Shown here piece after piece: positions 5,039 through 32,403 of a DNA stretch of 34,035 nucleotides; position 1 is the first letter of the stretch, and the number at the start of each line of letters is the position of its first letter. The translations under genes were made by a program, and so were the position numbers. Source of the stretch: a virus; IMG/VR virus record IMGVR_UViG_3300024264_000103, positions 1-34,035 of that record; one strand, 5' to 3'. The notes under the pieces are model-generated. The model did not search any database. It was given only the letters and a program-made list of their open reading frames with translations, and had not been told where the DNA came from.

Positions 5039-5258
5039 AGAATTAATAAAGGTAGCAAAAGAACCTATTGTTGATTCAGGAGATGATATCACAGCAGATA
5101 GATTAAAAAATGCAGCAGCCACAAAAAAGCTAGCAATATTTGATTGCTTTGAAATACTTAATCGCATTGAAGCTGAAGAAGCTTTGTTAAATGAAAAACC
5201 TAAAGAAGTAAAAGAAGAAAAGTCTTTTAGAGGTTTTGCTGAAGGTAGATCTAAGTAA
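4983..5258 (+). CDS. Small helical protein before TerL; candidate small terminase (91 aa)
   Basis: It starts at ATG 4983 inside the GroES-like gene (56-base overlap in another frame) because no later start is available, and its TAA shares a base with the TerL ATG (TAATG at 5256-5260). The product is helical: AGQIAVEELIKVAKEP, GDDITADRLKNAAATKKLAI and FDCFEILNRIEAEEALL, ending in a charged Lys/Glu tail. The position directly before TerL and the small helical form suit a terminase small subunit or a TerL-binding partner. No helix-turn-helix is obvious, so this is inference. The ITADRLKNAAATKKLAIFD stretch looks like a conserved core. Confidence 0.6.
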   Translation: MNTKETKKNIILAGQIAVEELIKVAKEPIVDSGDDITADRLKNAAATKKLAIFDCFEILNRIEAEEALLNEKPKEVKEEKSFRGFAEGRSK

Positions 5259-7471
5259 TGTACGAGCAAACTTTATATAAAGTATTAAAAGACCATGTAA
5301 AGCCTAAGGTTCTTAAAAGAATGAATAGGTATAAAAAATGGGAATATGGCTATAACGAAGAGCACGATCTTGTCGTTATAAGTAAAACAGGTGAGATAGG
5401 CGAGGTTTATGAAATACAAAACCTTAAAATAGCTTTGCCTAAAGTAAAAGATGTTGTTGAATTTGAAAAAGATAAGTGGACTTATACACCATACCCAAAA
5501 GAATTAAAAAAAATTAAATCTGTATTTGACTGGGAAGAATACCCGTTAGATTTTAAAGAAAAATGGTATGACTATATTGATGAAGAATTTACACGACGCG
5601 AAGAAGGCTTTTGGTTCATTAGCAAAGGTATTCCTACTTACATTACTGGCACTTATTATATGTACTTGCAGTGGAGTAAGATTGACGTCGGGCAACCAGA
5701 CTTTAGGGAATCGAATAGATTATTCTACATATTTTGGGAGGCATGCAAATCCGATACCAGGTCATATGGAATGTGTTATCTTAAAAACCGTCGAAGCGGA
5801 TTTTCATTTATGTCCTCAGCTGAATCGGTCAACCTTGCTACAATATCAACGGATTCACGGTTTGGCATATTGTCCAAATCTGGTGCCGATGCTAAAAAGA
5901 TGTTCACAGATAAGGTCGTACCTATTTCCGTTAACTATCCCTTCTTTTTCAAACCGATCCAGGACGGTATGGACAGGCCAAAGACCGAACTCGCCTACAG
6001 AGTCCCTGCCTCCAAATTTACCCGTAGAAAGCTTGAAGCCAACGAAAAAATACAAGAAATTACCGGTTTGGACACCACCATCGACTGGAAGAACACCGGT
6101 GACAACGCCTACGATGGAGAGAAGCTCAAACTCCTCGTCCACGATGAATCGGGGAAATGGGAAAGGCCCAACAACATCCTCAACAACTGGCGTGTTACGA
6201 AAACCACCCTTCGATTAGGTAGTAGAGTAATAGGCAAATGTATGATGGGATCAACGTCAAACTCATTAGATAAAGGCGGCGATAATTTTAAAAAGCTTTA
6301 CAATGATTCAGATGTTACACAAAGAAACGCCAACGGACAGACTCGCTCAGGACTCTATTCTTTGTTCATACCTATGGAATGGAACTACGAAGGATACATT
6401 GATTCTTATGGCTTACCTGTATTCAACACACCAAAAAAAGAAGTTACAGATCCACACGGAACAAAAATAACACAAGGTGTAATAGAGTACTGGGAAAATG
6501 AAGTAGAAGGTTTAAAATCAGATCAAGATAGTTTAAATGAATTTTACAGACAATTTCCGCGTACAACTAAGCACGCATTTAGAGATGAATCAAAACAATC
6601 TTTATTTAATTTAACTAAGATATACCAACAAATAGATTTTAATGAAGATCTTAAAAACTCAATCAACGTAACAAGAGGAAGTTTCCAATGGGAAAATGCT
6701 GAAAAAGATACTAGAGTAATATTTGTTCCAAATAATGATGGTAGATTTTTAGTAACTTGGGTTCCTCCTGAGCAATTACAAAATAAAAGATATATAAAAA
6801 ATGGTACTAATTATCCTGGCAATGAGCACTGCGGAGCATTTGGTTGTGATCCATATGATATATCAGGCACTGTGGACGGTAGGGGGTCGAAAGGCGCTCT
6901 TCACGGTTTAACAAAGTTCAGTATGGAGGACGTACCTCCTAATCATTTCTTTTTAGAATATATAGCTAGACCACAAACTGCTGAAATATTTTTTGAAGAT
7001 GTATTAATGGCTTGCGTATTTTATGGTATGCCAATATTAGCTGAAAATAATAAACCCAGATTGTTATATCATTTTAAACGAAGAGGCTATAGAGGCTATT
7101 CAATTAATAGACCGGATAGAAAATATAACAAATTATCAGTAACAGAAAGAGAGTTAGGTGGTATACCAAACTCAAGTGAAGATATAAAACAAGCTCATGC
7201 GGCTGCTATAGAAACATATATAAATGAATTTGTAGGGCTTAAAGAAACAGGATACGGCGACGTATACTTTCAAAGAACATTAGAAGATTGGGCAAAGTTT
7301 AATATTAATAATAGAACAAAACACGATGCATCGATAAGTTCAGGCTTAGCATTGATGGCATGTAACAAGCATAGATACGCGCCAGGTCCTAAAAGAGAAA
7401 GACCGTTACCGGTTGATTTAGGAATTAAAAAGTACGACAACAAAGGTTCAATATCAAAAATAATAAGTTAA
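5258..7471 (+). CDS. terL: Terminase large subunit, ATPase plus nuclease
   Basis: This is the packaging motor that cuts concatemeric DNA and drives it through the portal. The N-terminal ATPase domain has a deviant Walker A, KNRRSGFSF at residues 176-184, and a Walker B of hydrophobic residues followed by acidic ones (LKLLVHDE, 290-297) with the catalytic Glu at 297. A motif-III-like GSTSNS follows. The C-terminal RNase H-like nuclease shows FGCDPYD, with D531 and D534 as likely metal ligands. At 737 residues it is long, as in crAss-like phages. It abuts the portal gene with no gap. Bases about 5690-6215, which include both Walker motifs, are much more GC-rich than the rest. Confidence 0.92.
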   Translation: MYEQTLYKVLKDHVKPKVLKRMNRYKKWEYGYNEEHDLVVISKTGEIGEVYEIQNLKIALPKVKDVVEFEKDKWTYTPYPKELKKIKSVFDWEEYPLDFKEKWYDYIDEEFTRREEGFWFISKGIPTYITGTYYMYLQWSKIDVGQPDFRESNRLFYIFWEACKSDTRSYGMCYLKNRRSGFSFMSSAESVNLATISTDSRFGILSKSGADAKKMFTDKVVPISVNYPFFFKPIQDGMDRPKTELAYRVPASKFTRRKLEANEKIQEITGLDTTIDWKNTGDNAYDGEKLKLLVHDESGKWERPNNILNNWRVTKTTLRLGSRVIGKCMMGSTSNSLDKGGDNFKKLYNDSDVTQRNANGQTRSGLYSLFIPMEWNYEGYIDSYGLPVFNTPKKEVTDPHGTKITQGVIEYWENEVEGLKSDQDSLNEFYRQFPRTTKHAFRDESKQSLFNLTKIYQQIDFNEDLKNSINVTRGSFQWENAEKDTRVIFVPNNDGRFLVTWVPPEQLQNKRYIKNGTNYPGNEHCGAFGCDPYDISGTVDGRGSKGALHGLTKFSMEDVPPNHFFLEYIARPQTAEIFFEDVLMACVFYGMPILAENNKPRLLYHFKRRGYRGYSINRPDRKYNKLSVTERELGGIPNSSEDIKQAHAAAIETYINEFVGLKETGYGDVYFQRTLEDWAKFNINNRTKHDASISSGLALMACNKHRYAPGPKRERPLPVDLGIKKYDNKGSISKIIS
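5690..6215. other. GC-rich composition island inside terL
   Basis: By hand count, bases 5941-6180 hold 119 G+C of 240 (about 50%), while 5281-5340 in the same gene holds 16 of 60 (27%). In the island Leu is often CTC (four within 6120-6185) and Arg often CGT, CGA or AGG, whereas the surrounding phage genes use TTA and AGA. The patch also keeps two false frames open (+ frame 5568-6218 and - strand 5855-6142), an effect of the composition. It spans the ATPase core and stays in frame. Recombination with a GC-richer relative or an assembly chimera are both possible. Confidence 0.75.
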
Positions 7472-9859
7472 ATGAGTATATATACTAACACAAACAGCGC
7501 TTTTCCTAGTCAAGTAGTAAGTGACGCAGAAAAAGCAAGTTTGGAATATGGTACGCAAGTTGGGCAGGCTATTGAATACGAATGGTTTGGTCAAGGTCGA
7601 ACTAACGGTAATAGATATTTAACTAGTTGGAATCAATTTCACCAATTAAGATTATATGCTCGAGGAGAGCAATCAATACAAAAGTATAAAGACGAACTGT
7701 CAATTAATGGCGATTTATCTTATTTAAACTTAGACTGGAAACCTGTACCTATATTATCTAAATTTGTAGATATAGTAGTTAATGGAATTTCGGCTAAGTC
7801 TTACGATGTAAAAGCGTACGCGCAAGACCCTTACTCAATAAAGAAAAGAACAGATTACGCTTCTACTCTTTATGAAGATATGGTAGCTAAAGAATATTTA
7901 GACAGTTTAAAAGAAACTTTAGGAATTGATTTATATCAAACACCTAATATAGATACGATACCAGAGTCTAAAGAAGAGCTTGAGCTTCATATGCAATTAA
8001 GCTATAAGCAGTCAATTGAAATAGCAGAAGAAGAAGCTATATCATCTGTGCTTGCTCAAAATAAATATGATCTTACTAGAAGAAGATTAAATATGGATTT
8101 AACTGTGTTAGGTATTGCTGTTGCTAAAACAGGCTTTAATACAGCAGAAGGCGTAACGGTTGATTACGTAGATCCGGCATATGTTGTTTACTCTTACACA
8201 GAGGATCCTAATTTTGACGATATTTATTATGTAGGTGAAGTAAAGTCTATAACAATACCTGAGCTTAAAAAAGAGTTCCCTAATATATCTGAGGAAGAAC
8301 TTGCTAGAATTCAAAAGATGCCAGGTAATAGCCAATATGTAACAGGCTGGGGAAACTATGATAAAAATACTGTACAAGTTTTATACTTTGATTATAAAAC
8401 ATACCACAATCAAGTATTTAAAATAAAGCAAACAGAACAAGGATTAATGAAGGCTTTAGAAAAGCCAGACACATTTAATCCACCTGCTAATGATAATTTT
8501 GAAAGAGTATCAAGATCTATTGAAGTACTATATAGCGGAGCTAAAGTATTAGGCAATAATGATATGCTTAAATGGGAGTTGGCAGAAAATATGTCAAGAC
8601 CTGTAGCAGATACAACTAAGGTTGAAATGAATTATGCTATATGTGCGCCTAGAATGTATAAAGGAAGAATTGAATCTATTGTAAGCAAATGTATTGGTTT
8701 TGCTGATATGATTCAATTAACACATTTAAAGCTGCAACAAGTTTTATCTCGTATGGTTCCAGATGGTGTGTACTTGGATATGGACGGGCTTGCAGAAGTC
8801 GACTTAGGCAACGGTACAAACTACAACCCCGCGGAAGCACTTAATATGTATTTCCAAACAGGTTCTATTGTAGGTAGATCACTTACTCAAGATGGCGATA
8901 TGAATGCCGGTAAAGTTCCTATTCAAGAACTTAATAGTTCAAGCGGTCAAGCTAAAATAGGTGCGCTTATACAAACGTATCAATATTATTTACAAATGAT
9001 ACGTGATGTAACGGGACTAAATGAAGCAAGAGACGGTACAGCAATGGATAAGAACTCACTTGTAGGATTGCAAAAGATGGCTGCTAACGCGTCCAATGTT
9101 GCTACCAGACATATTAATCAGTCTAGCCTTTATTTAACGCTTAAACTAGCCGAAAACATTGCTCTTAAAATAGCAGATGCTTTAGAATTTCCACTTACAA
9201 GAAGCGCATTACAAAACTCTATATCAACGTTTAATATAAAAACGTTAGATGAGGTTGTTAATTTAAACTTGCATGACTTTGGTATATTTTTAGAGCTGGA
9301 GCCAGACGATGAAGAATTAGCACAGCTTGAAGCAAATATACAGGTTTCACTACAACAAGGCAGTTTAAACTTAGAGGACGCTATAGATTTAAGGCAAATT
9401 AAAAATCTTAAATTAGCAAATCAATTGCTTAAGGTAAAAAGAAAAGCTAAAGCCAAACAGGATCAAGCTAATCAACAAGCTAATATTGCGGCACAAGGGC
9501 AAGCACAAGCAGACACTGCTGAAAAAACAGCAATGGCTGAGGTACAGAAGCAGGAAGCTATAATGGGTGCTAACGTACAGTTTGAGCAATCAAAAAATCA
9601 AATGGAGATACAACGCATGGAAATAGCAGCGCAGTTAGAAGCGCAAAAAATGCAAACAAAGTTTCAATACGACATGCAACTCAAGCAATTAGATGTTCAA
9701 ACAATCCAACAAAAAGAAGGAGCAATTGAAGATCGTAAAGATAATCGTAGCAAAATGGAAGCTACGCAGCAAAGCGAATTGATAAGTCAAAGAAAAAACG
9801 ATGGCTTACCAATAGACTTTGAAAATCAGCCTGAACAAGGCATGCAAGCTTTCATGTAG
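7472..9859 (+). CDS. Portal protein (795 aa)
   Basis: The ATG follows the TerL stop with no spacer. The sequence contains LRLYARGEQSIQKYKDEL from residue 59, then DLSYLNLDWKPVPILSKFVD, a long helical wing, and PAYVVYSYTEDPNFDDIYYV, the pattern I associate with portals of crAss-like and related Bacteroidota podoviruses. MIRDVTGLNEARDGT in the second half is a typical portal element near the crown. From about residue 640 the protein is a Gln- and Ala-rich coiled coil (QQANIAAQGQAQAD; MQTKFQYDMQLKQLDVQ), probably the barrel or an extended C-terminal tail. Twelve copies would form the packaging vertex that receives TerL and later the ring proteins. Confidence 0.88.
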   Translation: MSIYTNTNSAFPSQVVSDAEKASLEYGTQVGQAIEYEWFGQGRTNGNRYLTSWNQFHQLRLYARGEQSIQKYKDELSINGDLSYLNLDWKPVPILSKFVDIVVNGISAKSYDVKAYAQDPYSIKKRTDYASTLYEDMVAKEYLDSLKETLGIDLYQTPNIDTIPESKEELELHMQLSYKQSIEIAEEEAISSVLAQNKYDLTRRRLNMDLTVLGIAVAKTGFNTAEGVTVDYVDPAYVVYSYTEDPNFDDIYYVGEVKSITIPELKKEFPNISEEELARIQKMPGNSQYVTGWGNYDKNTVQVLYFDYKTYHNQVFKIKQTEQGLMKALEKPDTFNPPANDNFERVSRSIEVLYSGAKVLGNNDMLKWELAENMSRPVADTTKVEMNYAICAPRMYKGRIESIVSKCIGFADMIQLTHLKLQQVLSRMVPDGVYLDMDGLAEVDLGNGTNYNPAEALNMYFQTGSIVGRSLTQDGDMNAGKVPIQELNSSSGQAKIGALIQTYQYYLQMIRDVTGLNEARDGTAMDKNSLVGLQKMAANASNVATRHINQSSLYLTLKLAENIALKIADALEFPLTRSALQNSISTFNIKTLDEVVNLNLHDFGIFLELEPDDEELAQLEANIQVSLQQGSLNLEDAIDLRQIKNLKLANQLLKVKRKAKAKQDQANQQANIAAQGQAQADTAEKTAMAEVQKQEAIMGANVQFEQSKNQMEIQRMEIAAQLEAQKMQTKFQYDMQLKQLDVQTIQQKEGAIEDRKDNRSKMEATQQSELISQRKNDGLPIDFENQPEQGMQAFM

Positions 9860-20183: not shown

Positions 20184-21632
20184 ATGGCAGGAGCAGTAAT
20201 TGAGGTAAAATACTTTAACACTTTTTTGTTGAAAAAAACAAGTAAAGCAGAAGAGCCTATATGGAACGGTTCCTATGGTATACCTTCAGATATTGGTGGA
20301 TATCCAGTTGTTTCTAATATTAATGAAACTAGTAACTGGGCTATTGAAGAATCTAGAATTAGAGGAGGTTATAATAACACTACTGTAGATTTTGGTGTAA
20401 AAGCATATATAGTAGAAGATGAACCTAATCAAGCTATTAAAGCAAGTGGGTTAATATACTCAGGCATATTTAATTCTAGAACAGGAATAAATAGAACCAA
20501 TGTTTTTTCTGTTGCTGAAGAAATTACTAAATCAGCAGATCCAGCTAATGGCTCTATACAAAAATTATTTGCTGAAGATACAAACCTTACTGTATTACAA
20601 GAGCTTAAGTGCTCTAGGGCTTTAATAGATAAAGATGCTATATATTCTGCAGAGGGAGGAGGCACTGTTACCGCTAGTAATTTAGTGATAGGAGTTATTC
20701 AACCATATACAGGGCAGTATGGTATTAGCTTAGACCCTGGTAGTTTTGCAAGTTACGGTTATAGAAAGTATTTTTCAGACAGAAATAACAATGTAATCCT
20801 ACGACTGAGCCGTGATGGCATAGAAGAAATATCTAGCTACGGTATGACCGATTATTTTAGAGATGAATTAAACGCTGTAGATAGCCCCGCTACTAATGGT
20901 AAAATAATAGGAGGCTATGACATTCACAACGATCAATATGTTATTTCAACTCAAGGCTTTCAAACAAGAACACTTTGTTTTGATGAACGACCAAAAGGGT
21001 GGACTAGCTTTTTTACTTATTCCCCAGATCAAATATTCAGTTTAAGAAATAAATATTATACAACAAAAGATAATGAATTATATCAACATTACTCTGAATC
21101 TGTTAGCAGAGGTAATTTTTACGGAAATAGAACTCCTAGCAGCATAACGTTAGTATTAAATCCAAATCCAACAATTTCTAAAAACTTTAAAGCTATTGCT
21201 TACGAGGGTAGTAATGGCTGGGAAGCTGTTTCTGCTTTTTCTGATAAAACAGGAAAAAATAAAAACGGAGTATATGTTGATACATTCGATTCATCAAATA
21301 CAATATTAAGCTTTTATGGAGGTGAATATGTTATTAATCCTTCAAATAATCAACCAGTTAAATGGACGGATTACTCAGGCACATTAGGCACAGCGCAGCC
21401 CCCATACAATAGATATCATGCTGGCTTCGATAGAAAAGAAAACAAGTATGTAGCTAACTTAGTTAACAAGAGCACAGCTTCGGAAGGAGAAGTAATTTGG
21501 GGCGATTCTATGAGCGGCATTAAAGGATTTTACGCAACTGTAAAATTATCAACTGACTTAGTTACGGACGTAGGTGGACCTAAATCACTATTTTCAGTAG
21601 AAGGCACTTACTCAATTAACAACGGATATTAA
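20184..21632 (+). CDS. Second tail stabilisation protein (482 aa)
   Basis: Residues 179-229 contain YGISLDPGSFASYGYRKYFS, then NNVILRLSRDGIEEISSYGM and TDYFRDEL. Next come GGYDIHNDQYVISTQ and FDERPKGWTSFFTYSPDQIF. These repeated RLSRDG, GGYD and KGWTSF elements are blades of a beta-propeller-like stabilisation protein, and I associate them with the second half of crAss-like muzzle proteins. Here that half is a separate gene, 33 bases after the 1539-aa protein. The N-terminal 150 residues are beta-rich with no recognisable motif. The two gene products probably assemble together at the tail tip. There is no sign of a frameshift: the first gene ends naturally and this one has its own ATG and A-rich leader. 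Confidence 0.7.
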   Translation: MAGAVIEVKYFNTFLLKKTSKAEEPIWNGSYGIPSDIGGYPVVSNINETSNWAIEESRIRGGYNNTTVDFGVKAYIVEDEPNQAIKASGLIYSGIFNSRTGINRTNVFSVAEEITKSADPANGSIQKLFAEDTNLTVLQELKCSRALIDKDAIYSAEGGGTVTASNLVIGVIQPYTGQYGISLDPGSFASYGYRKYFSDRNNNVILRLSRDGIEEISSYGMTDYFRDELNAVDSPATNGKIIGGYDIHNDQYVISTQGFQTRTLCFDERPKGWTSFFTYSPDQIFSLRNKYYTTKDNELYQHYSESVSRGNFYGNRTPSSITLVLNPNPTISKNFKAIAYEGSNGWEAVSAFSDKTGKNKNGVYVDTFDSSNTILSFYGGEYVINPSNNQPVKWTDYSGTLGTAQPPYNRYHAGFDRKENKYVANLVNKSTASEGEVIWGDSMSGIKGFYATVKLSTDLVTDVGGPKSLFSVEGTYSINNGY

Positions 21633-21650
21633 TATGAAAAAATATAACAC

Positions 21651-22322
21651 ATGGCATTAGGAACAATGGCTTTAATCGGCGGTGGAGCTCAGGTAATAGG
21701 AGGTTTGTTTGGGATGAGTTCAGCTAAAAAAAGAGCCGAAGCGGCAGCTAAAGAAAAAAGACGTTTGCAAAGAAAGCTAACTAATTTAGAAAACAATAGA
21801 CAAGAAATAATAAACCCTTACGATGGCATTCAGGACCTTAGTAGTTTAATAAGCAATCCTTTTGCTAATTTATCTGTAGCAACGGGTGCAGCTGAAATGA
21901 AAATAGAAGAAGCTGATATATCTTTAGCTAATACTTTAGATACAATGAGAGCTACCGGGGCGAGTGCCGGAGGCGCAACGGCATTAGCGCAGGCTGCATT
22001 GAGATCTAAAAAAGGGGTAGCGGCTAGTATTGAAGCGCAAGAAAAAACAAACGAAGACAAAAGAGCCGCGGGTGAACAAGCTTTACAACAACAAAAAATG
22101 GCTGAAGCACAAAGATTACAACAAGCAGATGTTGCTGGTGAACAATTTATGTTCAGCACTCGAGAAAGCAGGGAAATGCAACAATTAGATAGAACAGCGG
22201 CAATGTTAGGAGCATCAAGAGCAGCTGAAGGTCAGGCTCAAAGTGATAGAACTGGCGCTTTAACAGGTATGCTAGGAGGTATTGCTTCCACGGCAGGTGC
22301 CTATATAGCCGCTAAGTCTTAA
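21651..22322 (+). CDS. Probable internal virion protein, T7 gp14-like (223 aa)
   Basis: It has a hydrophobic Gly/Ala-rich start (ALIGGGAQVIGGLFGM), a long basic then Gln/Ala-rich helix (KKRAEAAAKEKRRLQRKL; EQALQQQKMAEAQRLQQADV), and a second hydrophobic Gly/Ala segment at the C-terminus (LGGIASTAGAYIAA). Two membrane-compatible ends around a coiled coil are typical of ejected internal core proteins of podoviruses such as T7 gp14, which enter the outer membrane. It lies between the tail stabilisation genes and the giant protein, where internal virion proteins are expected. The similarity is one of design and position only. Confidence 0.65.
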   Translation: MALGTMALIGGGAQVIGGLFGMSSAKKRAEAAAKEKRRLQRKLTNLENNRQEIINPYDGIQDLSSLISNPFANLSVATGAAEMKIEEADISLANTLDTMRATGASAGGATALAQAALRSKKGVAASIEAQEKTNEDKRAAGEQALQQQKMAEAQRLQQADVAGEQFMFSTRESREMQQLDRTAAMLGASRAAEGQAQSDRTGALTGMLGGIASTAGAYIAAKS

Positions 22323-22333
22323 TAAAAATAAAT

Positions 22334-23485
22334 ATGGAAAACCAAAATTTACTTCAAAATATTTTCTTAAAGCAATTTAATGAAAGCAACGCTATTGCTT
22401 ATAATAGAAATTTTGTAGCTAACCCAAGCGATTATAATTTTCAATTACTTGATAATGCTTATCGTTTTGCCGGTAAGTACTATGCTCAAATAAAAATAGC
22501 TATAGAATCAAACAAATGTCAATCAGAAGACTGCGCTTTTGAATTGTCTCAGTTAAAAAGACTTCAAGAAGCTCCAAAAGCATCTTTAGATTTTTTAGCA
22601 TCACTAATAGCAGAGTTAAACACAACTGATGAACCTAATTTTGATCCAAATAACAATTACAAATATACAGCGGCTAATAGCATAATGATGGCAAGACCTG
22701 GCTTTTCTAAAAACGATGGCTACGAAGTTTATTTAGATTTAATGCAAGACGGATCACAGCAAATAGAATTTAGAGGACCTGTTTTTAAAAAGAAAGAGTT
22801 AGTTCCTTTTCAAGACGAACTTGTAGAAATAGATATAGATGATCCTTTAATTATAAACAGCGCATCTTTAAACGCTTTAACTAGTTCAGAAACTTCTTTA
22901 GTTGTTTCAACTCCAGATATAAATGCTTCTATGCTAAAATTACTACCTGACACTGGGTTATTTTTGCAGGAAATGATTAATGAAAATAAAGAACTAGGGT
23001 CAAATGCTAAAATAAGCGAGGAGTTTGTAATGAAAAATTCAGACGGCAGTTTTGATTATGAAATTGTTGATTTAGGAAATGGTAAAGGAAGAAACGTGCT
23101 TAAGTATGACATGAAAAAAATTAATCAAAAAGTATCCCCATTTGTAAATGCTGAAGTTGCAGGCTTAATGGGCTCTGAGCAAGACGTAGTAGCTGCATGG
23201 AACGTTTATATATCTAAAGACACTAGCGTTACGGAAGACGATCAAATGGTTCAAAATGCAAATGCAGCAGGATCAAGTTGGTTGTATGAAAGAGATTTGC
23301 CTTTATCTCCAGACAAAAAAGAAATTTTTGGAATAAAATATAAAGAATACTTTATGAATAATTATCTAAATGAATTTACTAAAAACCAAATACCTACGGT
23401 AAAAGAAGATGCCGCAGTATTTGATTTAGCAGAAGCTAAGAAAGCAGAAGCACAAAAATTTTTAGATGATAACAACTTAAATTAA
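22334..23485 (+). CDS. Probable internal virion protein (383 aa), unrecognised family
   Basis: A soluble, acidic protein with a helical N-terminus (LLQNIFLKQFNESNAIAYN; DNAYRFAGKYYAQIKIAIES), a central mixed region (GYEVYLDLMQDGSQQIEFRG) and a helical charged C-terminus (FDLAEAKKAEAQKFLDDNN). Two cysteines flank a short acidic loop (CQSEDC). No enzymatic motif or membrane segment is seen. The gene starts 11 bases after the gp14-like gene and ends five bases before the giant protein, so the three form one unit, much as T7 gp14-gp15-gp16 do. On that analogy it may occupy the gp15-like place. I do not recognise a family. Confidence 0.6.
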   Translation: MENQNLLQNIFLKQFNESNAIAYNRNFVANPSDYNFQLLDNAYRFAGKYYAQIKIAIESNKCQSEDCAFELSQLKRLQEAPKASLDFLASLIAELNTTDEPNFDPNNNYKYTAANSIMMARPGFSKNDGYEVYLDLMQDGSQQIEFRGPVFKKKELVPFQDELVEIDIDDPLIINSASLNALTSSETSLVVSTPDINASMLKLLPDTGLFLQEMINENKELGSNAKISEEFVMKNSDGSFDYEIVDLGNGKGRNVLKYDMKKINQKVSPFVNAEVAGLMGSEQDVVAAWNVYISKDTSVTEDDQMVQNANAAGSSWLYERDLPLSPDKKEIFGIKYKEYFMNNYLNEFTKNQIPTVKEDAAVFDLAEAKKAEAQKFLDDNNLN

Positions 23486-23490
23486 ATTAA

Positions 23491-26400
23491 ATGAACTTAT
23501 TAGAATACGTACAATCATTAGGCTCTGATATATCTTTAGAAGAAAAAATTGCTTTAACTAAAGACTGGAAGGAAAAAAATGAACCAGTAGAAACTATTGT
23601 TGAAGAAGTAAAACCTAATAAATTTAATGAAGATGGATCTTTAAATGTAGATTCTTTTTCTGAAGAAACAAAAGGATCTGCTGAAAAGGTAAATGAAAAA
23701 AAGAAAACTGCTGCTGTACAGGACAATGCAACAGCGTTTCCGGTTATGTCCGAGAGTATAAGCTTTGGAAATGGTCAATCAAAATCTTTATTTCAAGAAA
23801 GTGATTGGTTAAAATCTTATAAAAAACAACAGAAACAAAAAGAAGCATTTGAAACTCAGCAAACAAAGCTTAATTCTATTGTATCTGAAAATGAAATGTA
23901 TACTGCTAACGGCTATGATCTTAAATGGGGCGTTAGCAAAAAAGGCAATATAGAGTATTATCAAAAAGAAGAGGGAGCAAAAGATTGGAAGTTAGAAAAA
24001 AATGACGGTGCTATTTTTGATATAGCAGGAGCGCTAGGCCATTTAAACGAAGAGCAAAAGAAAAAACTAAAGGAGTTTAAAAAGCAGCAAAAAGAGCAAA
24101 AAAAGCAAGCGGGTTATTTTAACGACATACTTAACAGGAGTGAAGATACTTTTAAAATTGATCCTGATTTAGGAAAATTAGACATAAAGCTTGGTCAAGT
24201 TACTGTTAAGCCAAAAATAACAGGCACTGTAAATCAGGAGTTAATTGAGGCTATGGACAATGATAACCTTAATAACAAGAGCATTGATCTTACTTACTAC
24301 ACGGACAAAAAAAATGCAATAAAAGAAATAAAGCTTCAAAGATCTGAAATTGAAAATAAAGCAAAACGTATTGCAAAGAGTAAAGGTCTTGACGAGGAGC
24401 AGTCCTTAGATTTTATTAATAAAGAGTTAGCTAATTTTGATGATCAGTACGGTAGTGAAATAGAACTTTTAGAAGATTTAAACGGTTTAACTGAACTACA
24501 AAGGAAAGCTTTAGTCGAATTAAAAAAAGATACAGGTAACAATGCTAGCACTGGGAATACATCTCAGCAGTTGGGAAATTATTTTAATTCTGCTTTATCA
24601 ATTATTGGGGTAGACTTAGAAGAAGTTTTTAGAGACCCAGAAGTTATAGAGTTAAATAATGAGGTGGAGCTTAACATAATAAATTCTTTAAGTCAAAGAG
24701 ATTTAGAAAAGCTAGCTAAGGGTTATTTTAATTTAAAAGAAAAAGAAGAATTAATTAACAAGGCTAAAATTCCAATTTACCAAAGAAAATCTAAATTTTT
24801 ATCTAGAGCTTTTGAAAATTTAGAAGAAACTTATAAAGGTTCTTTAACAGCTATGGATACCGAGCTGGCTGACTTAAAGTTAGAAATGAATAATTTATAT
24901 TCTACAGGTCTTAACACACAAAGTCAGTTAAATGCTTATTCTGATTTATCTAAAAAATATTCAGATATTTCATTATTAAAAAATGATCAAATTACAGCAT
25001 ACACAAAAGAGTTAGGAGATTTAGTTGCAACTAAAAACTTTGTGGAGGGGGATTTGAATATGTCTTTTTCTAAGAACACAATAAATAACAATTTTAAACT
25101 TACCGACGAAGTAATAAAATATAGAGAATCATTTGCAGGTGAAGGTTTTTGGAATGGGACTATGGATGTAGTTGGAGGAGAAGGTATAGGTGGCATGTAC
25201 GAACTAGTTATGAAAGCAAATCCGTTGTCTTTCGGAGCAACTTTAGTTGCTAATGGTTTAGACTGGATAGGAGATATGGTTGGTTCTCATGACCCTGAAG
25301 GATATTCAGTTTACGAAGCGTGGGCAGATACAATTTACAATTTTACAGATTACGGGCTAGTGCCCAAATCAGAGGATGAAAAATTTAGCATAACAAAAGA
25401 AGAAGGTGGGTTTTCTGATTTTAATCTTAGAAATTATGGAAAAACCGGAGTTAGAATGTTACCTTTTTCGTTATATTTAATAGGTGAAGCTAGAAAAGGC
25501 AAAGTTTCAAACATACAACAAAGCATTGGTAAGGCGCTAAACGGTTTTAATTCTACTACAAAGGTGTTAACACCTTTGAGTGCTAAGTTAAAAAATAATA
25601 TTATAATGGCGGAAGCTGCTTTTAGAGGCACTTATGCAGACAACGTTAAAGACGCTCAAAGTAAAGGTTTGTTTGGCGCTAAAGGGTACACTTATGCAGC
25701 ATCTATATCTTTAGCGGAAGGATTGGTGCAATCTATAATGCCTGATACGCAGTTTTTAAAAGGTGTTGGAGGTAGAAAACTAAAAGATGCTTTTGCGGGC
25801 AGGCTATCTAAAGCTGCTACAATAGAAGCAACAAAAACTGCAGGTAAAGAATTTAGCATAAACATATTAAAAGAATACGGGGAAGAGCAAGTAAATTATG
25901 GGTTAGGTTTAATAACTGATATTTCTTATGGGCTTGCATTACCTAAGTCTTCAGAATTTTTAAATGAGCAAATAGAGTTAGCCGCAGGCACTTTAATGCT
26001 AAGCAGCGGTATGGGTTCTATAGGTGCTGTTAAAACTTTTAATAATCAAAAAACTTTAATATACAATCAGCTAGCGGGTAATTTAGATTCTACCATGCTC
26101 TACCTTGATACCTTAAAAAAGAATACCTCAGATCCTTCTGCTATTGAGCAAATAACAAAAGCCCAACAATTTGCTTTTAATGTAGCAAAAGCAGTTCGAT
26201 TATCACCTTCTGATGTAACAGGAGCTGAAGTTGATTTGTTAATGGAAAAAACAGAGTTATTAAAAGAAAAAGACAATACAGATTCGGCTTTTCATAAGCC
26301 TATAAACGATAAAATAGCAGAATTAGACAAGCAAATAGTTGAAATTAATAAAACTAAAATTGAAGAATCTAAATCAAGAGCGGGTGCAAAAAACATAAAA

Positions 26401-29400
26401 GATCAAATTGGGACTACGTTAGAAACTTTTAGTGATCAAGCCACAATAGATGCAAGAGTAGAAGAAATAAAACAACAAGGTGGAAATGTTTTAGAATCTA
26501 CCGGTTATGGCCAAGCATTAGTTTTAGATGGCAAAAAAATAATATTAATAAATGATCAAGCGCAAGCGGAAGACTTTAGATATACTACAGATCAGCATGA
26601 GCTTTTACACCACTTTTTCCTTGAAACCTTTAAAACAAACCCAGATGCTGCCATAAAATTTGGGAAAGCATTAATTAGTGAAATTGTTAACAATCCAGAC
26701 ATTACCGGAGGTTTTGAATTTATGGAAAGGTTTAATGATTATCTTACAGATGAAAATTATTCAGCCGCAAATACATTTGAAGAGGTTATTCCTTTAATAA
26801 GTGAATCTCTTACAAATGGCGATATTGTTTATAATAAAAAGCAAGATAGTTTCTGGAAAGCAATTGGAAAACAAATTTCTAGTTTATTTAAAAATCCAAG
26901 CAATAAACAAAAGCTGGGCATAACTTTTGATACCGGATTAGATGTGTTTACTTTTATTAAAGACTTTAATAAAACAATAGAGTCAGGTGGAAAATTAACT
27001 GAGGAACAAGTAAGGATATCTAAAGAAGGAGCTACAGGTGAGTTAGTAACAGGAGATTTAAAAATTGACGGCAGAACAAAAGGAAGTAAAGTTGTTAAAG
27101 TGATTAATGAAGCAATGGTGGACGCTACCGCTGACGCTGAAATCATGGTAGCTAAAGAAAGCAAAAAAAACACAGGTACTGAAGCTTCTGCTAAAGTTCA
27201 AGAAATATTTGAAGCTAAAGGCACGGACGGCGCTTTTGATATCATACAGCAATTTAAGCCTATAGTAAATAAATTAGTAGAAAGAAGAAGCCAAGCTCCT
27301 AATTTTGATCGTCAATTATTAACAGATGAAATTGAAACAGGTAGACGCGGTATAATAGATTTAATTAAAGAATACGATCCTAAATCAAATGTGCCATTAG
27401 CTGCTTATGTAAATAAATTTTTACCCGCCAGGGCTATAGAAGCTTCGCAAAGAGTTTTAGGCGAAGAGTTTACTACAGATGTAACGGAGGCTAAAGGAAT
27501 TGCTGCTGAAGAAGTAACCACAGAAGTAAGTACAAAGCCTGTTACTAGAAAAATAAAACCTAGTTCACTTATTTCTAAAGACGCAGTAACTAAAATTAAA
27601 GAACAGATACAAGAAAAGATTAAAGGCATCGATTCTAAAAATCTAACGTTTAAAAAGCTTGGTGATTTAGCCCCTGAAATCATTGCAAAAGAAATTGGCA
27701 TACCTGTTAAAAAACTTACAGTTCCTGCTGCTAATTTATCAAAAGCAGATGCTACGGCTATTCAGCAATTTGTTAATAAGAACGCAGATAAATTATTAAA
27801 GATATTACCGGAAGGTGCAGTAGTAGAAGCTGCAACAGAGAAGCTCTTAGGTACCTCTACGGGTGTGCCGAAAGGATTGCTTGAAGCATTTTATACTAAA
27901 AAAGCTAGACTTGGCAAAGGTGCTGGGCTTTCACCATTTGTTTTAAATAAGGGAATTACAAAAGCAAAATTTTTAGAAGCATTTGGTATAGTTGATGGCA
28001 AGAAACAAGAAGGTTTTAAAGCTAGATCTTCACAAGCTCAGGCTTTAAAAGGTATTGCTAATTTGTATGGAAGACTTGTAACAAATGAAATTGTAAGATC
28101 TGATACAGATTTAAGCTTAGAAACTAAACAAGATGTAGCTGCAGGTAAAAATACATCAATGGCTAGCAAGCGTATAAATACGGAAGCTGAAATACCTGCT
28201 GCTTTAATGGATACATTTAAAGATCTTTCTATTTTAAGAAGTAAAAAACAATTAGCTAACAAACTTGGATTTAGCTCACCGCCTATAAATGAATCTAATA
28301 GAAAAGAACAGCAAGATAAAGTTCTAGAAGCCGTTATAAAATACGGGTTAGATACAGCAACCTTGGAAGCAGGTATGATGGGAAGCGGTGGAAGACAAAG
28401 TTTTTATGGAAATATAGTTAAAGGAAAATTTGTAAAAAAAGCAGAAAAAGACGGCGGTAAAAAATATGTAAAAACCACTGATGGCGAATATATTTTAGAA
28501 AAAAGCAAAAGAGGTAAATTAAAAGGAAGCAAAATAACTAACTGGGTTGCAAAACCTGGAAGATTATATTATGGTAATCAAGACCCTGCTTTTCAAACTT
28601 TAATAAAAGAAGCTAAAAAATACGAAGGTAAAAAAGCTAAAAGAGTTGGTGTTAAAAATGCTTTTACAGAAAAAAGTATAGAACAGTCCAAAGTAAATAT
28701 GGCTACTCTGGATCACGTAGTTAATCAACTAGCTGACGCTGTAGCCAAAGGAATGTCTTTAGATGTTGCAGGTGCTATTGTTATACAAAGTTATCAAGCA
28801 ACCTCTGGGTTAATTAAAATAGCTGCCCCTTTTAAATACAAATCTATATTAATGGAATACGCTGGATCTGAAAGCAAACAAAGTCAGCGAGAAGGAGAAA
28901 AATTTAGAGAGGAACATAATCCACCTGCATCGGTTATAGGTGCGCAAATAATGTTTGCTATAAAATATAACGCAGCCAAGCCTATAATGAAGGCTATAAA
29001 AGAAAATTATTATCAAACTCAACTTTCTAAAAAAGATGATAATAAATTAGATATGGCTAAATTAGATGCAACTTTAGTGGAGGGCCAAACTATATTTGAT
29101 AATCCAATATCTAGGTTAGCCGCTGCTGGAATAAATCTTCAAACTTTAGTAAATCCTATAACAGGAAAAACTATAGCAGAAGAAAGTGGTTTTGGAATTG
29201 ATCCAACAATGTATAACAAATACAATACTAACGAAAAACTACAAGCTTCTAGTATTCAAAACGAAGCTATACTAGAAGGATTAAAAAATCCTGAATATAA
29301 TGTTGCTAAAATTATCAAAGCTTCGCTACCTTTAGTGGCTGGTAAAAGCATGGCCTCTAAGCGCGATGGTGGTTTAATACCTGATGCTATTAAATATGAC

Positions 29401-32400
29401 AGACCTATAACTGTACAAACAGCTATAAATGCTTTAGAAAAAACCGATAAAGCTTTAAACAATGCTAGACGGCTAGATGCTCCCGTTAAAAAAATTAGAG
29501 TATTTGATTTTGATGATACGCTTGCAAAATCAAAAAGCATGGTTATTGTTAATATGCCTGACGGTAGCTCTAAAAAAATAAACGCAACTCAATTTGCTCA
29601 GCAAGCATCTGATCTTGAGTCACAAGGTGCGGAGTTTGATTTTACAGAATTTAGCAAAGTTGTTGAAGGTAAAAAAGGACCTTTGTTTGAAGTTGCTCAA
29701 AAAATAGCAGATGCAAGAGGAACAGAAGATGTATTTATACTTACAGCAAGACCTCAAAATGCTGATGGTCCTATAAAAGCTTTTATGAAAGCAAATGGTA
29801 TTGACATACCTTTAAAAAATATAACAGGTTTAAGCGATGGCACAGCTGAAGCAAAAGCTGGCTGGATAATGGGTAAAGCCGCAGAAGGTTATAATGATTT
29901 TTATTTTGCAGATGATGCTATTAAAAACGTGCAGGCCGTTAAAGATGTGCTAAGTCAAATTGATGTTAAGTCTGAAGTTCAATTGGCTAAAGCTAGTAAA
30001 AGAACAACTTTTGATGCTATCGTAAACGATATGATTGAAGATTCTGCGGGTATTGAAACTTACAAAAAATATTCTGCCGCTAGAGCTAAAACTGTTGGCG
30101 CTAACAAAGGCAAATTTAATTTCTTTATTCCAGCATCGGCTGAAGATTTTACAGGGTTATTATATAAAATGCTAGGCAAAGGTAAAAAAGGTGATGCTCA
30201 AATGGCATTTCTTAAAACAAATTTACTTGATCCCTACGACAGAGCTGAGTCAGCTGTAACACAAGCTAAGATAGCAGCAGCTAATGATTTTAAGGCATTA
30301 AAACAAAACTTAAAAACTTTGCCTAAAAGCTTAAGCAAGCCAACAGGTGTAGGTGGATTTACATTTTCCCATGCTGTTCGTGTTGCCGTGTGGTCTAAAC
30401 AAGGTATGAGCATTCCAGGTTTGTCTAAAAAAGATATAAAAGAATTAAATGATTTTGTAGACAACAATGCAGAGCTTAGTGTGTTTACAGATGAATTAAT
30501 GAAAATTCAAAAAGGCAAACCTTATCCTAAGCCTGGAAATAATTGGCTGGGTGGTAACATAACTAGCGATATTATAAACGGTATCAATAAAGTAAACAGA
30601 GCAGAGTACCAACAAGAGTGGAGAGAAAATGTAGACATCATATTTTCAGAAGATAATATGAATAAGATGGAAGCTGCATATGGAACTAGATGGCGTGAAG
30701 CTATGGAAGATTCTTTACGCAGGATGAAATCTGGTAGTAACAGACCTCCAGGTGGTAACAGAGTTACTGATGGATTATTAGATTGGTTGAACAATTCTGT
30801 AGGTGCTGTAATGTTTTTAAATACAAGGTCTGCGCTGCTTCAAACAATATCATCGGTAAACTTTATAAACTGGGGTGATAATAATATTGTTAAAGCTGGT
30901 TTAGCATTTGCTAATCAAAAACAATTCTGGAGTGATTTCATGACACTTATGAACTCTGATTACTTAGTTGAACGTAGAAACGGACTTAAAATAAATGTAA
31001 GTGAATCTGAAATAGCAGATGCTGTAAGAGATTCTAAAAACAAAGTAAAGTCTGCTATAGCATTTTTATTAAGTAAAGGTTTTGTTATGACTAGATTTGC
31101 GGATAGTTTTGCTATTGCAACAGGTGGCTCTACATTTTATAGAAACAGAGTAAAAGCTTTAGTGGCTAAAGGAATGGATCAAAAAGCTGCAGAAAAGCAA
31201 GCGTTTAATGACTTCAGACAAATAGCAGAAGAAAGCCAGCAATCAAGTAATCCAAATAGAATTAGTGCACAACAAGCATCTGGTGCGGGGCGTGTGATAT
31301 TAGCGTGGGCAAACACACCTATGCAGTATGCTCGTATACAAAAAAGAGCAGCTCAAGATCTTATAAACGGCAGAGGTGATTGGAAAACAAATGTATCTAA
31401 AATTGTTTATTACGGTGCTGTACAGAATTTAATATTCAATGCCCTGCAACAAGCTGTGTTCGCATTAGGATTTGGCGAAGATGACGAAGAAGAAATGGAT
31501 GCTAAGAAAAGTGAAAAGATTTCAAGAATAGCAAATGGCATGATTGATTCACAACTTAAAGGATTAGGTATTGGTGGTGCTGCAGTAGTTGCTTTAAAAA
31601 CTGCTTTAATGGAATTAGGTAAGCAACACGCAAAAGATAGATCTAAATACGAAGAAGCAGTATTTGATTTACTAGGATTCTCACCACCTCTTGGTTCTAA
31701 AATACAAAAAATAAATAGCGGTCTTAGAAGTTTTAGCTGGAATATGAAAGATATAAAAAGCAAAGGGTTTAGTTTAGACAATCCAGCTTATTTAGCAGGT
31801 GCTCAAATAACAACTGGACTTACTAATATACCTCTTGATAGAGTTATAAAAAAGCTGAATAGCATGCGAGGTATTGTAAATGAACAATCTGCTCTTTGGC
31901 AAAAGGTTGCACTGGGATTAGGTTGGTCTACATGGGATGTAGGTTTAGGATACTATGGCGGATTTGATGCTGCAAAAGTATTAACTCCTGAAGAACAAGC
32001 TATAGAAGATGTTACTACAATGAAAAAAGAAACTAAAACTAAAGAACAAGTTGATATGCTTTTAGATTTAGGGCTTACTAAAAAAGAAATAAAAGCTTTA
32101 GGTAAAGAGCAAGCAAGAGTTGAAAAAATAATAGAACTTCAAAAAGCAGAAGTTACACCAAAGGTTGAGCCTGAAGTAAAATCTGAAGAAGTTAAAGAGG
32201 AACCTAAACAAGAAACAAAACCTAAAAACGAAAGTGCGGAAAGAAAACTTAGAAGACAGTTTGATTCTATTAAAGGTGAAAACAAACCTGATCAAGTAAA
32301 AACATTGCTTAAGTTTGGATTGTCAAAAAAAGAAATAAGAGCTTTACAATACGAAAAGAACCGAGTAAATAAAATATTAGAATTAATGAAAAAAAATAAA

Positions 32401-32403
32401 TAG
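23491..32403 (+). CDS. Giant multidomain (polyvalent) protein, 2970 aa
   Basis: One uninterrupted frame ending in TAG at 32401. In order it has: a charged N-terminus with a Lys/Gln coiled coil (about 185-205); Gly-rich hydrophobic stretches near 560-600 and 830-850; a zincin motif HELLH at 1036-1040 with E1097/E1098 as a possible third ligand; a helical segment at 1275-1315 (GRRGIIDLIKEYDPKSNVPL) like sigma-70 region 2; a complete HAD phosphatase set, DFDDT 2006-2010, T2085 and DD 2141-2142; a hydrophobic part around 2639-2661; and two similar C-terminal helices. ASKR occurs at 1558, 1955 and 2168. Large polyvalent phage proteins of this kind are thought to be ejected with the DNA. Size and place after the internal virion genes support that. 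It has no DxDxD RNA polymerase motif that I could find. Confidence 0.8.
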   Translation: MNLLEYVQSLGSDISLEEKIALTKDWKEKNEPVETIVEEVKPNKFNEDGSLNVDSFSEETKGSAEKVNEKKKTAAVQDNATAFPVMSESISFGNGQSKSLFQESDWLKSYKKQQKQKEAFETQQTKLNSIVSENEMYTANGYDLKWGVSKKGNIEYYQKEEGAKDWKLEKNDGAIFDIAGALGHLNEEQKKKLKEFKKQQKEQKKQAGYFNDILNRSEDTFKIDPDLGKLDIKLGQVTVKPKITGTVNQELIEAMDNDNLNNKSIDLTYYTDKKNAIKEIKLQRSEIENKAKRIAKSKGLDEEQSLDFINKELANFDDQYGSEIELLEDLNGLTELQRKALVELKKDTGNNASTGNTSQQLGNYFNSALSIIGVDLEEVFRDPEVIELNNEVELNIINSLSQRDLEKLAKGYFNLKEKEELINKAKIPIYQRKSKFLSRAFENLEETYKGSLTAMDTELADLKLEMNNLYSTGLNTQSQLNAYSDLSKKYSDISLLKNDQITAYTKELGDLVATKNFVEGDLNMSFSKNTINNNFKLTDEVIKYRESFAGEGFWNGTMDVVGGEGIGGMYELVMKANPLSFGATLVANGLDWIGDMVGSHDPEGYSVYEAWADTIYNFTDYGLVPKSEDEKFSITKEEGGFSDFNLRNYGKTGVRMLPFSLYLIGEARKGKVSNIQQSIGKALNGFNSTTKVLTPLSAKLKNNIIMAEAAFRGTYADNVKDAQSKGLFGAKGYTYAASISLAEGLVQSIMPDTQFLKGVGGRKLKDAFAGRLSKAATIEATKTAGKEFSINILKEYGEEQVNYGLGLITDISYGLALPKSSEFLNEQIELAAGTLMLSSGMGSIGAVKTFNNQKTLIYNQLAGNLDSTMLYLDTLKKNTSDPSAIEQITKAQQFAFNVAKAVRLSPSDVTGAEVDLLMEKTELLKEKDNTDSAFHKPINDKIAELDKQIVEINKTKIEESKSRAGAKNIKDQIGTTLETFSDQATIDARVEEIKQQGGNVLESTGYGQALVLDGKKIILINDQAQAEDFRYTTDQHELLHHFFLETFKTNPDAAIKFGKALISEIVNNPDITGGFEFMERFNDYLTDENYSAANTFEEVIPLISESLTNGDIVYNKKQDSFWKAIGKQISSLFKNPSNKQKLGITFDTGLDVFTFIKDFNKTIESGGKLTEEQVRISKEGATGELVTGDLKIDGRTKGSKVVKVINEAMVDATADAEIMVAKESKKNTGTEASAKVQEIFEAKGTDGAFDIIQQFKPIVNKLVERRSQAPNFDRQLLTDEIETGRRGIIDLIKEYDPKSNVPLAAYVNKFLPARAIEASQRVLGEEFTTDVTEAKGIAAEEVTTEVSTKPVTRKIKPSSLISKDAVTKIKEQIQEKIKGIDSKNLTFKKLGDLAPEIIAKEIGIPVKKLTVPAANLSKADATAIQQFVNKNADKLLKILPEGAVVEAATEKLLGTSTGVPKGLLEAFYTKKARLGKGAGLSPFVLNKGITKAKFLEAFGIVDGKKQEGFKARSSQAQALKGIANLYGRLVTNEIVRSDTDLSLETKQDVAAGKNTSMASKRINTEAEIPAALMDTFKDLSILRSKKQLANKLGFSSPPINESNRKEQQDKVLEAVIKYGLDTATLEAGMMGSGGRQSFYGNIVKGKFVKKAEKDGGKKYVKTTDGEYILEKSKRGKLKGSKITNWVAKPGRLYYGNQDPAFQTLIKEAKKYEGKKAKRVGVKNAFTEKSIEQSKVNMATLDHVVNQLADAVAKGMSLDVAGAIVIQSYQATSGLIKIAAPFKYKSILMEYAGSESKQSQREGEKFREEHNPPASVIGAQIMFAIKYNAAKPIMKAIKENYYQTQLSKKDDNKLDMAKLDATLVEGQTIFDNPISRLAAAGINLQTLVNPITGKTIAEESGFGIDPTMYNKYNTNEKLQASSIQNEAILEGLKNPEYNVAKIIKASLPLVAGKSMASKRDGGLIPDAIKYDRPITVQTAINALEKTDKALNNARRLDAPVKKIRVFDFDDTLAKSKSMVIVNMPDGSSKKINATQFAQQASDLESQGAEFDFTEFSKVVEGKKGPLFEVAQKIADARGTEDVFILTARPQNADGPIKAFMKANGIDIPLKNITGLSDGTAEAKAGWIMGKAAEGYNDFYFADDAIKNVQAVKDVLSQIDVKSEVQLAKASKRTTFDAIVNDMIEDSAGIETYKKYSAARAKTVGANKGKFNFFIPASAEDFTGLLYKMLGKGKKGDAQMAFLKTNLLDPYDRAESAVTQAKIAAANDFKALKQNLKTLPKSLSKPTGVGGFTFSHAVRVAVWSKQGMSIPGLSKKDIKELNDFVDNNAELSVFTDELMKIQKGKPYPKPGNNWLGGNITSDIINGINKVNRAEYQQEWRENVDIIFSEDNMNKMEAAYGTRWREAMEDSLRRMKSGSNRPPGGNRVTDGLLDWLNNSVGAVMFLNTRSALLQTISSVNFINWGDNNIVKAGLAFANQKQFWSDFMTLMNSDYLVERRNGLKINVSESEIADAVRDSKNKVKSAIAFLLSKGFVMTRFADSFAIATGGSTFYRNRVKALVAKGMDQKAAEKQAFNDFRQIAEESQQSSNPNRISAQQASGAGRVILAWANTPMQYARIQKRAAQDLINGRGDWKTNVSKIVYYGAVQNLIFNALQQAVFALGFGEDDEEEMDAKKSEKISRIANGMIDSQLKGLGIGGAAVVALKTALMELGKQHAKDRSKYEEAVFDLLGFSPPLGSKIQKINSGLRSFSWNMKDIKSKGFSLDNPAYLAGAQITTGLTNIPLDRVIKKLNSMRGIVNEQSALWQKVALGLGWSTWDVGLGYYGGFDAAKVLTPEEQAIEDVTTMKKETKTKEQVDMLLDLGLTKKEIKALGKEQARVEKIIELQKAEVTPKVEPEVKSEEVKEEPKQETKPKNESAERKLRRQFDSIKGENKPDQVKTLLKFGLSKKEIRALQYEKNRVNKILELMKKNK

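Follow-up and report, generated by a model that had tools for sequence, protein, structure and literature searches.

How does a phage deploy several unrelated domains that it encodes within one chain? The question is raised by a marine bacterial virus whose record of 34,035 bases, analysed over its whole length, is called the window here. The final gene of its structural block encodes a giant protein with the make-up of polyvalent proteins. We propose that this protein is probably cut at the seams between its modules by its own zincin and, packaged with the genome, ejected like T7 gp16 and the cargo proteins of crAss phages. The observations behind this reading are modular exchange among relatives, concerted seam motifs at the protein level and co-variation of these motifs with the zincin. 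Self-cutting would answer how giant virus proteins of this kind get unpacked.

A giant protein in a podovirus structural block

The relevant genes are all on the plus strand:
5258..7471, plus strand: terminase large subunit (TerL), by podovirus matches
7472..9859, plus strand: portal, by podovirus matches
20184..21632, plus strand: 482-aa relative of the crAss muzzle protein (Pfam PF25731 and PF25729, both above cutoff)
21651..22322, plus strand: 223-aa gp14-like protein, two genes upstream of the giant (Pfam T7_gp14)
22334..23485, plus strand: 383-aa gene in the T7 gp15 position, by synteny
23491..32403, plus strand: giant polyvalent protein, 2970 aa, 328 kDa, a single ORF from ATG to stop

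TerL and portal match podoviruses of Cellulophaga, Flavobacterium, Maribacter and Tenacibaculum, the portal with 52% identity to MW202828. The genes run from terminase and portal through structural genes, a 1539-aa gene, the muzzle-like, gp14-like and 383-aa genes to the giant, and the same order is found in several podoviruses of these four host genera. T7_gp14 is the sole Pfam match of the 223-aa gene (E=0.0074, below cutoff), and a Pfam search with the 383-aa gene gave none. The syntenic giants of elemoA (3694 aa) and phi38:1 (1691 aa) are annotated 'structural protein'. Thus, the gp16-like placement noted in the first-pass annotation is borne out by the podovirus matches of TerL and portal, the syntenic structural giants and the gp14-like and muzzle-like neighbours. 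Two other syntenic giants carry labels that are probably misannotations, namely 'reticulocyte binding/rhoptry protein' in MW202828 (741-12320) and 'tRNA methyltransferase' in PP540027 (28228-33717). The whole giant has no Pfam match above threshold and no PHROG match. Direct homology to isolate phages was also considered and rejected, tblastn giving no match and a profile search only the elemoA zincin.

Peptidase, sigma-like and phosphatase modules

The modules and key residues of the giant are as follows:
26353..27105, plus strand: zincin metallopeptidase module, aa about 955-1205 (alignment A3, invariant H-E-H-E)
26572..26574, plus strand: D1028, 8 residues before HExxH, candidate S1' specificity residue (column scan, hold-out)
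26596..26610, plus strand: HELLH, aa 1036-1040, with its H, E and H invariant in the alignment
26782..26784, plus strand: E1098, candidate third zinc ligand (invariant column of A3)
27202..27450, plus strand: sigma-region-2-like segment, aa about 1238-1320, within module 1226-1560 (PDB profile, Foldseek)
28171..29361, plus strand: module of unknown fold, aa 1561-1957, with other sequence in its place in several relatives
29485..29985, plus strand: HAD phosphatase module, aa about 1999-2165 (invariant motifs I-IV, class C acid phosphatase fold matches)
30001..31980, plus strand: helical C-terminal core, aa 2171-2830, conserved among relatives

Relatives were collected by scans of viral contigs (15 close ones at first, then 80, with hold-out scans adding more), and about 170 proteins were compared. 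Exactly one HExxH is present in 83 of 90 distinct family proteins (window included), in diverged sequence contexts, and H1036, E1037, H1040 and the distal E1098 are invariant in the 34 diverse relatives of alignment A3, so that HELLH is not a chance occurrence. A structural model of the zincin and sigma-like modules has a MATCAP peptidase as its best, weak Foldseek match (E=0.5). The peptidase reading is well supported by the alignments, and the earlier claim of a peptidase signature at HELLH was exact in its position. Relative L013 has EEIFH and no HExxH, its zincin being replaced or degenerated, yet it keeps SKG seams (see below); a different catalytic solution or a protease acting in trans are options there.

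The sigma-like segment proved the weakest of the three signatures reported in the first-pass annotation. RpoS region 2 provides the top two matches of the segment profile against 177,635 PDB sequences, but only at E=0.22, and sigma factors account for several Foldseek matches of the zincin and sigma model, in no case at E<0.001. A Pfam search of the giant returned no sigma match. A sigma-region-2-like identity for this helical segment is plausible but weak. A fold search with the adjacent 1561-1957 module found no match.

The phosphatase fared better. The complete HAD motif set described earlier is confirmed, with D2006 and D2008 in DFDDT, T2085-A-R, K2122 and D2141-D2142, all invariant in the first 15 relatives. 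The nearest Foldseek matches of the AlphaFold HAD model are class C acid phosphatases 3ocu, 3ocy and 3pct (prob 0.94-0.98, E only 0.25-0.5). The phosphatase reading is well supported. HAD and C-terminal core share 78-95% identity among the first relatives; structure searches with the core gave no match to a known fold. In some relatives, among them L042 (aa about 1760-1950), L047 and L097, a P-loop kinase-like domain is inserted into HAD between motifs I and II, at the C1-cap position. It recalls the kinase and phosphatase of T4 Pnkp, which are arranged in tandem there and nested here. Long HAD-region matches in L049-L052, L105 and L108 may represent the same insert. The C-terminus of the window giant (aa about 2848-2970, 32032-32400) contains two related repeats of ~35 residues, EQVDMLLDLGLTKKEIKALG / DQVKTLLKFGLSKKEIRALQ, of which L007, L014 and L015 have a single copy.

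Module exchange and seam peptides

Within the family, HAD and the C-terminal core are conserved, and each of the other parts (the N-terminal region, the zincin, the sigma-like and the middle modules) is swapped independently of the rest. The borders of exchange coincide with seams that bear the peptide [KMR][AFE]S[KR]X. This expression was chosen post hoc, from the first set of relatives. The window giant has four such seams, all C-terminal to the zincin:
27151..27168, plus strand: seam J0, AKESKK, aa 1221-1226, predicted cut K1225/K1226
28156..28173, plus strand: seam J1, SMASKR, aa 1556-1561, predicted cut K1560/R1561
29347..29364, plus strand: seam J2, SMASKR, aa 1953-1958, predicted cut K1957/R1958
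29986..30003, plus strand: seam J3, AKASKR, aa 2166-2171, predicted cut K2170/R2171

No 4-mer of the giant is more over-represented than ASKR, which has three copies where 0.06 are expected. Residue X is common to all copies within one genome and varies between genomes (R/K, L/I, G, T/S or D/E). It changes jointly at all seams, being L/L/L/I in L001 and L011, G in L013, T in L005, K in L043 and L054, and D/E in L097, and such joint changes are seen even between closely similar cores. X belongs to the same class in 82 of 117 within-protein pairs, versus 32 expected (0/20000 shuffles). Copies within one genome use different synonymous codons, which rules out an origin of the motif from repeats at the DNA level and indicates that selection acts on the seam peptide. 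Class-matched copies number 84 in giants versus 9 in shuffled giants, with a single one in the 103,408 aa of other ORFs from the same loci; relative to the zincin, 75 lie downstream and 2 upstream. EESKSR at aa 958-963 was rejected as an additional site, since its X is S, outside the R/K class, and it precedes the zincin. AlphaFold places J2 and J3 within predicted helices (J3 at low confidence), which counts against cleavage there.

Several relatives deserve separate mention. L101 (3990-12532) looked like a naturally split giant; it was rejected as such because its two overlapping ORFs change frame at the start of HAD, pointing to a frameshift or error. Giant genes L105-L113 are on contigs assigned to Aliivibrio, Woesearchaeota and Ilumatobacteraceae MAGs; these are probably phage contigs that were mis-binned. 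One giant of alignment A1, unlike the others, contains a LysM domain (Pfam E=1e-8).

The seam residue co-varies with the zincin

To identify the module with which X travels, we compared nearest-neighbour predictions of its class. The zincin was the best predictor (33/40, chance 0.36), ahead of the sigma module (0.68), the C-terminal region (0.56), HAD (0.51) and three neighbour genes (0.41-0.48); the 1539-aa gene scored 9/14. X would have to change 12 times on the zincin tree versus 22 times on the tree of HAD plus C-terminal region, the part in which J3 physically lies. On this second tree, independent contrasts agree in 7.6 of 8 cases with none opposed (p=0.008). By MRQAP, the zincin independently predicts J3 (0/1000 permutations); in a Mantel analysis of the whole family, J3 similarity tracks C-terminal similarity more strongly than zincin similarity.

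Among 1009 columns, the top one is residue -8 from HExxH (D1028 in the window). Asp at this position goes with Arg or Lys as X (17/17) and is found in none without basic X. Val tends to accompany Thr/Ser, Arg to accompany Leu/Ile, and Lys to accompany Asp in two lineages. The S1' residues of thermolysin are located 3, 9 and 12 positions before the first His, which suggests that residue -8 could line the S1' pocket. The zincin tree offers just two contrasts; therefore, residue -8 is not separated from the rest of the zincin. A first hold-out set of 34 distant giants had zero Asp(-8) cases and moderate concordance (6/15 versus 2.5). In a second one, consisting of 53 unseen giants found by their zincin, the motif copies located after the zincin are basic in 15 of 25 cases with Asp(-8) versus 3 of 68 without (p=2e-8).

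There are exceptions. L036 has a T-type zincin, yet its X is R. The MDQVVTTGQ clade and L314 have D at -8 and mostly S/T as X, L330 and L332 carrying a K copy in addition; L108 is mixed. Lys at -8 is also paired with T or G, and a rule that it always goes with acidic X is ruled out, because Lys occurs with T, G, K or Q as well. The sequence comparisons suggest that, with these exceptions, X follows the zincin module and not the neighbouring sequence.

A proposed self-processing precursor and its alternatives

According to the proposed scheme, the giant would most likely be packaged with the genome and then ejected in the manner of T7 gp16 and the crAss cargo. The zincin would cut its own polypeptide, either in cis or from one copy to another, at the inter-module seams, presumably after K1225, K1560, K1957 and K2170. 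Its S1' pocket would read the P1' residue following Lys, with D1028 as the putative residue favouring Arg or Lys. The predicted products are the zincin with the N-terminus (136 kDa), the sigma-like module (36 kDa), the 1561-1957 module (44 kDa), the HAD phosphatase (23 kDa) and the helical core (89 kDa). Cutting could take place before packaging, inside the capsid or after ejection. A single signal for packaging and ejection could in this way suffice to deliver several enzymes that are later separate proteins. The giant was initially described as a single chain combining several enzymes. One ORF with several domains is indeed what we find; what that description missed are the seams, which suggest that the chain is a precursor divided by cleavage.

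Instead, another protease, encoded by the phage or the host, could cut the seams; zincin and protease types would then travel together, and the correlation with the zincin would reflect this linkage. L013, with its concerted SKG seams despite a degenerate zincin, speaks for this reading. Against it, neighbour genes predict X poorly (0.41-0.48), and changes of X follow zincin swaps within otherwise conserved proteins. A virion protease should presumably also have further structural proteins among its targets, yet the remaining ORFs of the loci are almost free of the motif. We regard a separate protease as unlikely.

Readings without any cleavage are less probable still. The motif might serve for docking or packaging, as a tag that each module carries once and that the zincin or some other component of the virion binds; the repeated one-per-module layout and the predicted helices at J2 and J3 would suit a tag, but charge complementarity between X and the residue beside the zinc helix better fits a substrate pocket, and a tag does not account for the near absence of copies upstream of the zincin. 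This makes docking improbable. At marginally longer odds, the seams would be functionless scars of domain shuffling, that is, recombination points with concerted X due to shared ancestry. The coincidence of motif and module borders agrees with scars, whereas the synonymous differences between copies within a genome and the concerted shift of X across all the seams, seen also where cores are closely similar, do not.

We thus favour cutting by the resident zincin. More generally, and with somewhat less assurance than for the window giant, we consider it likely that phages carry self-processing ejection polyproteins, a platform for module swapping in which the embedded zincin and all seam peptides co-evolve, and a module taken up from another phage becomes functional only when its seam residue fits the zincin already in place. 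If so, phages bring in several enzymes via one ejection signal by the same polyprotein strategy that RNA viruses follow, and the seam code would allow module borders to be read in unannotated giant proteins.

Comparison with known systems

By position, after gp14-like and muzzle genes, the giant resembles T7 gp16 and the crAss001 cargo proteins as described in PMC10172136. Sequence searches with PDB profiles gave no match to either, PHROG and Pfam gave none to T7 gp16, and the equivalence is positional only. Like the giant, elemoA QLF85284 and phi38:1 gp101 are encoded by the last gene of the same syntenic block and annotated as structural. The elemoA protein has a homologous zincin (hhalign 92%, E=7e-7), with no homology detectable outside it; phi38:1 gp101 has none at all. 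The N4 virion RNA polymerase, in the passages of PMC12633501 searched, is a comparable ejected protein of about 3500 aa; it has an HExxH domain, and its large C-terminus is helical and of unknown fold. Those passages do not mention its processing. The giant differs in that no RNA polymerase was recognised in it.

The closest parallel is with the polyvalent proteins. In the portions of Iyer et al. 2017 (PMC5512222) used here, the zincin is the commonest domain of phage polyvalent proteins, autoprocessing by these zincins is proposed, and P1 DdrB is described as cut before packaging. Such proteins with a zincin MPTase share with the giant a phage multidomain chain and an embedded HExxH zincin. 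Text searches of that paper returned neither cleavage sites nor a specificity, and no domain of sigma-like or HAD type. The role of these zincins has so far been a guess; exact predicted sites, a candidate pocket residue and exact fragment sizes make autoprocessing directly testable. The giant differs from the polyvalent proteins of PMC5512222, as far as those portions describe them, in having seam motifs that co-vary with its zincin. Within the literature searched, three elements appear to be new: a concrete set of putative sites, the observation that these co-vary with the peptidase, and the products predicted from them.
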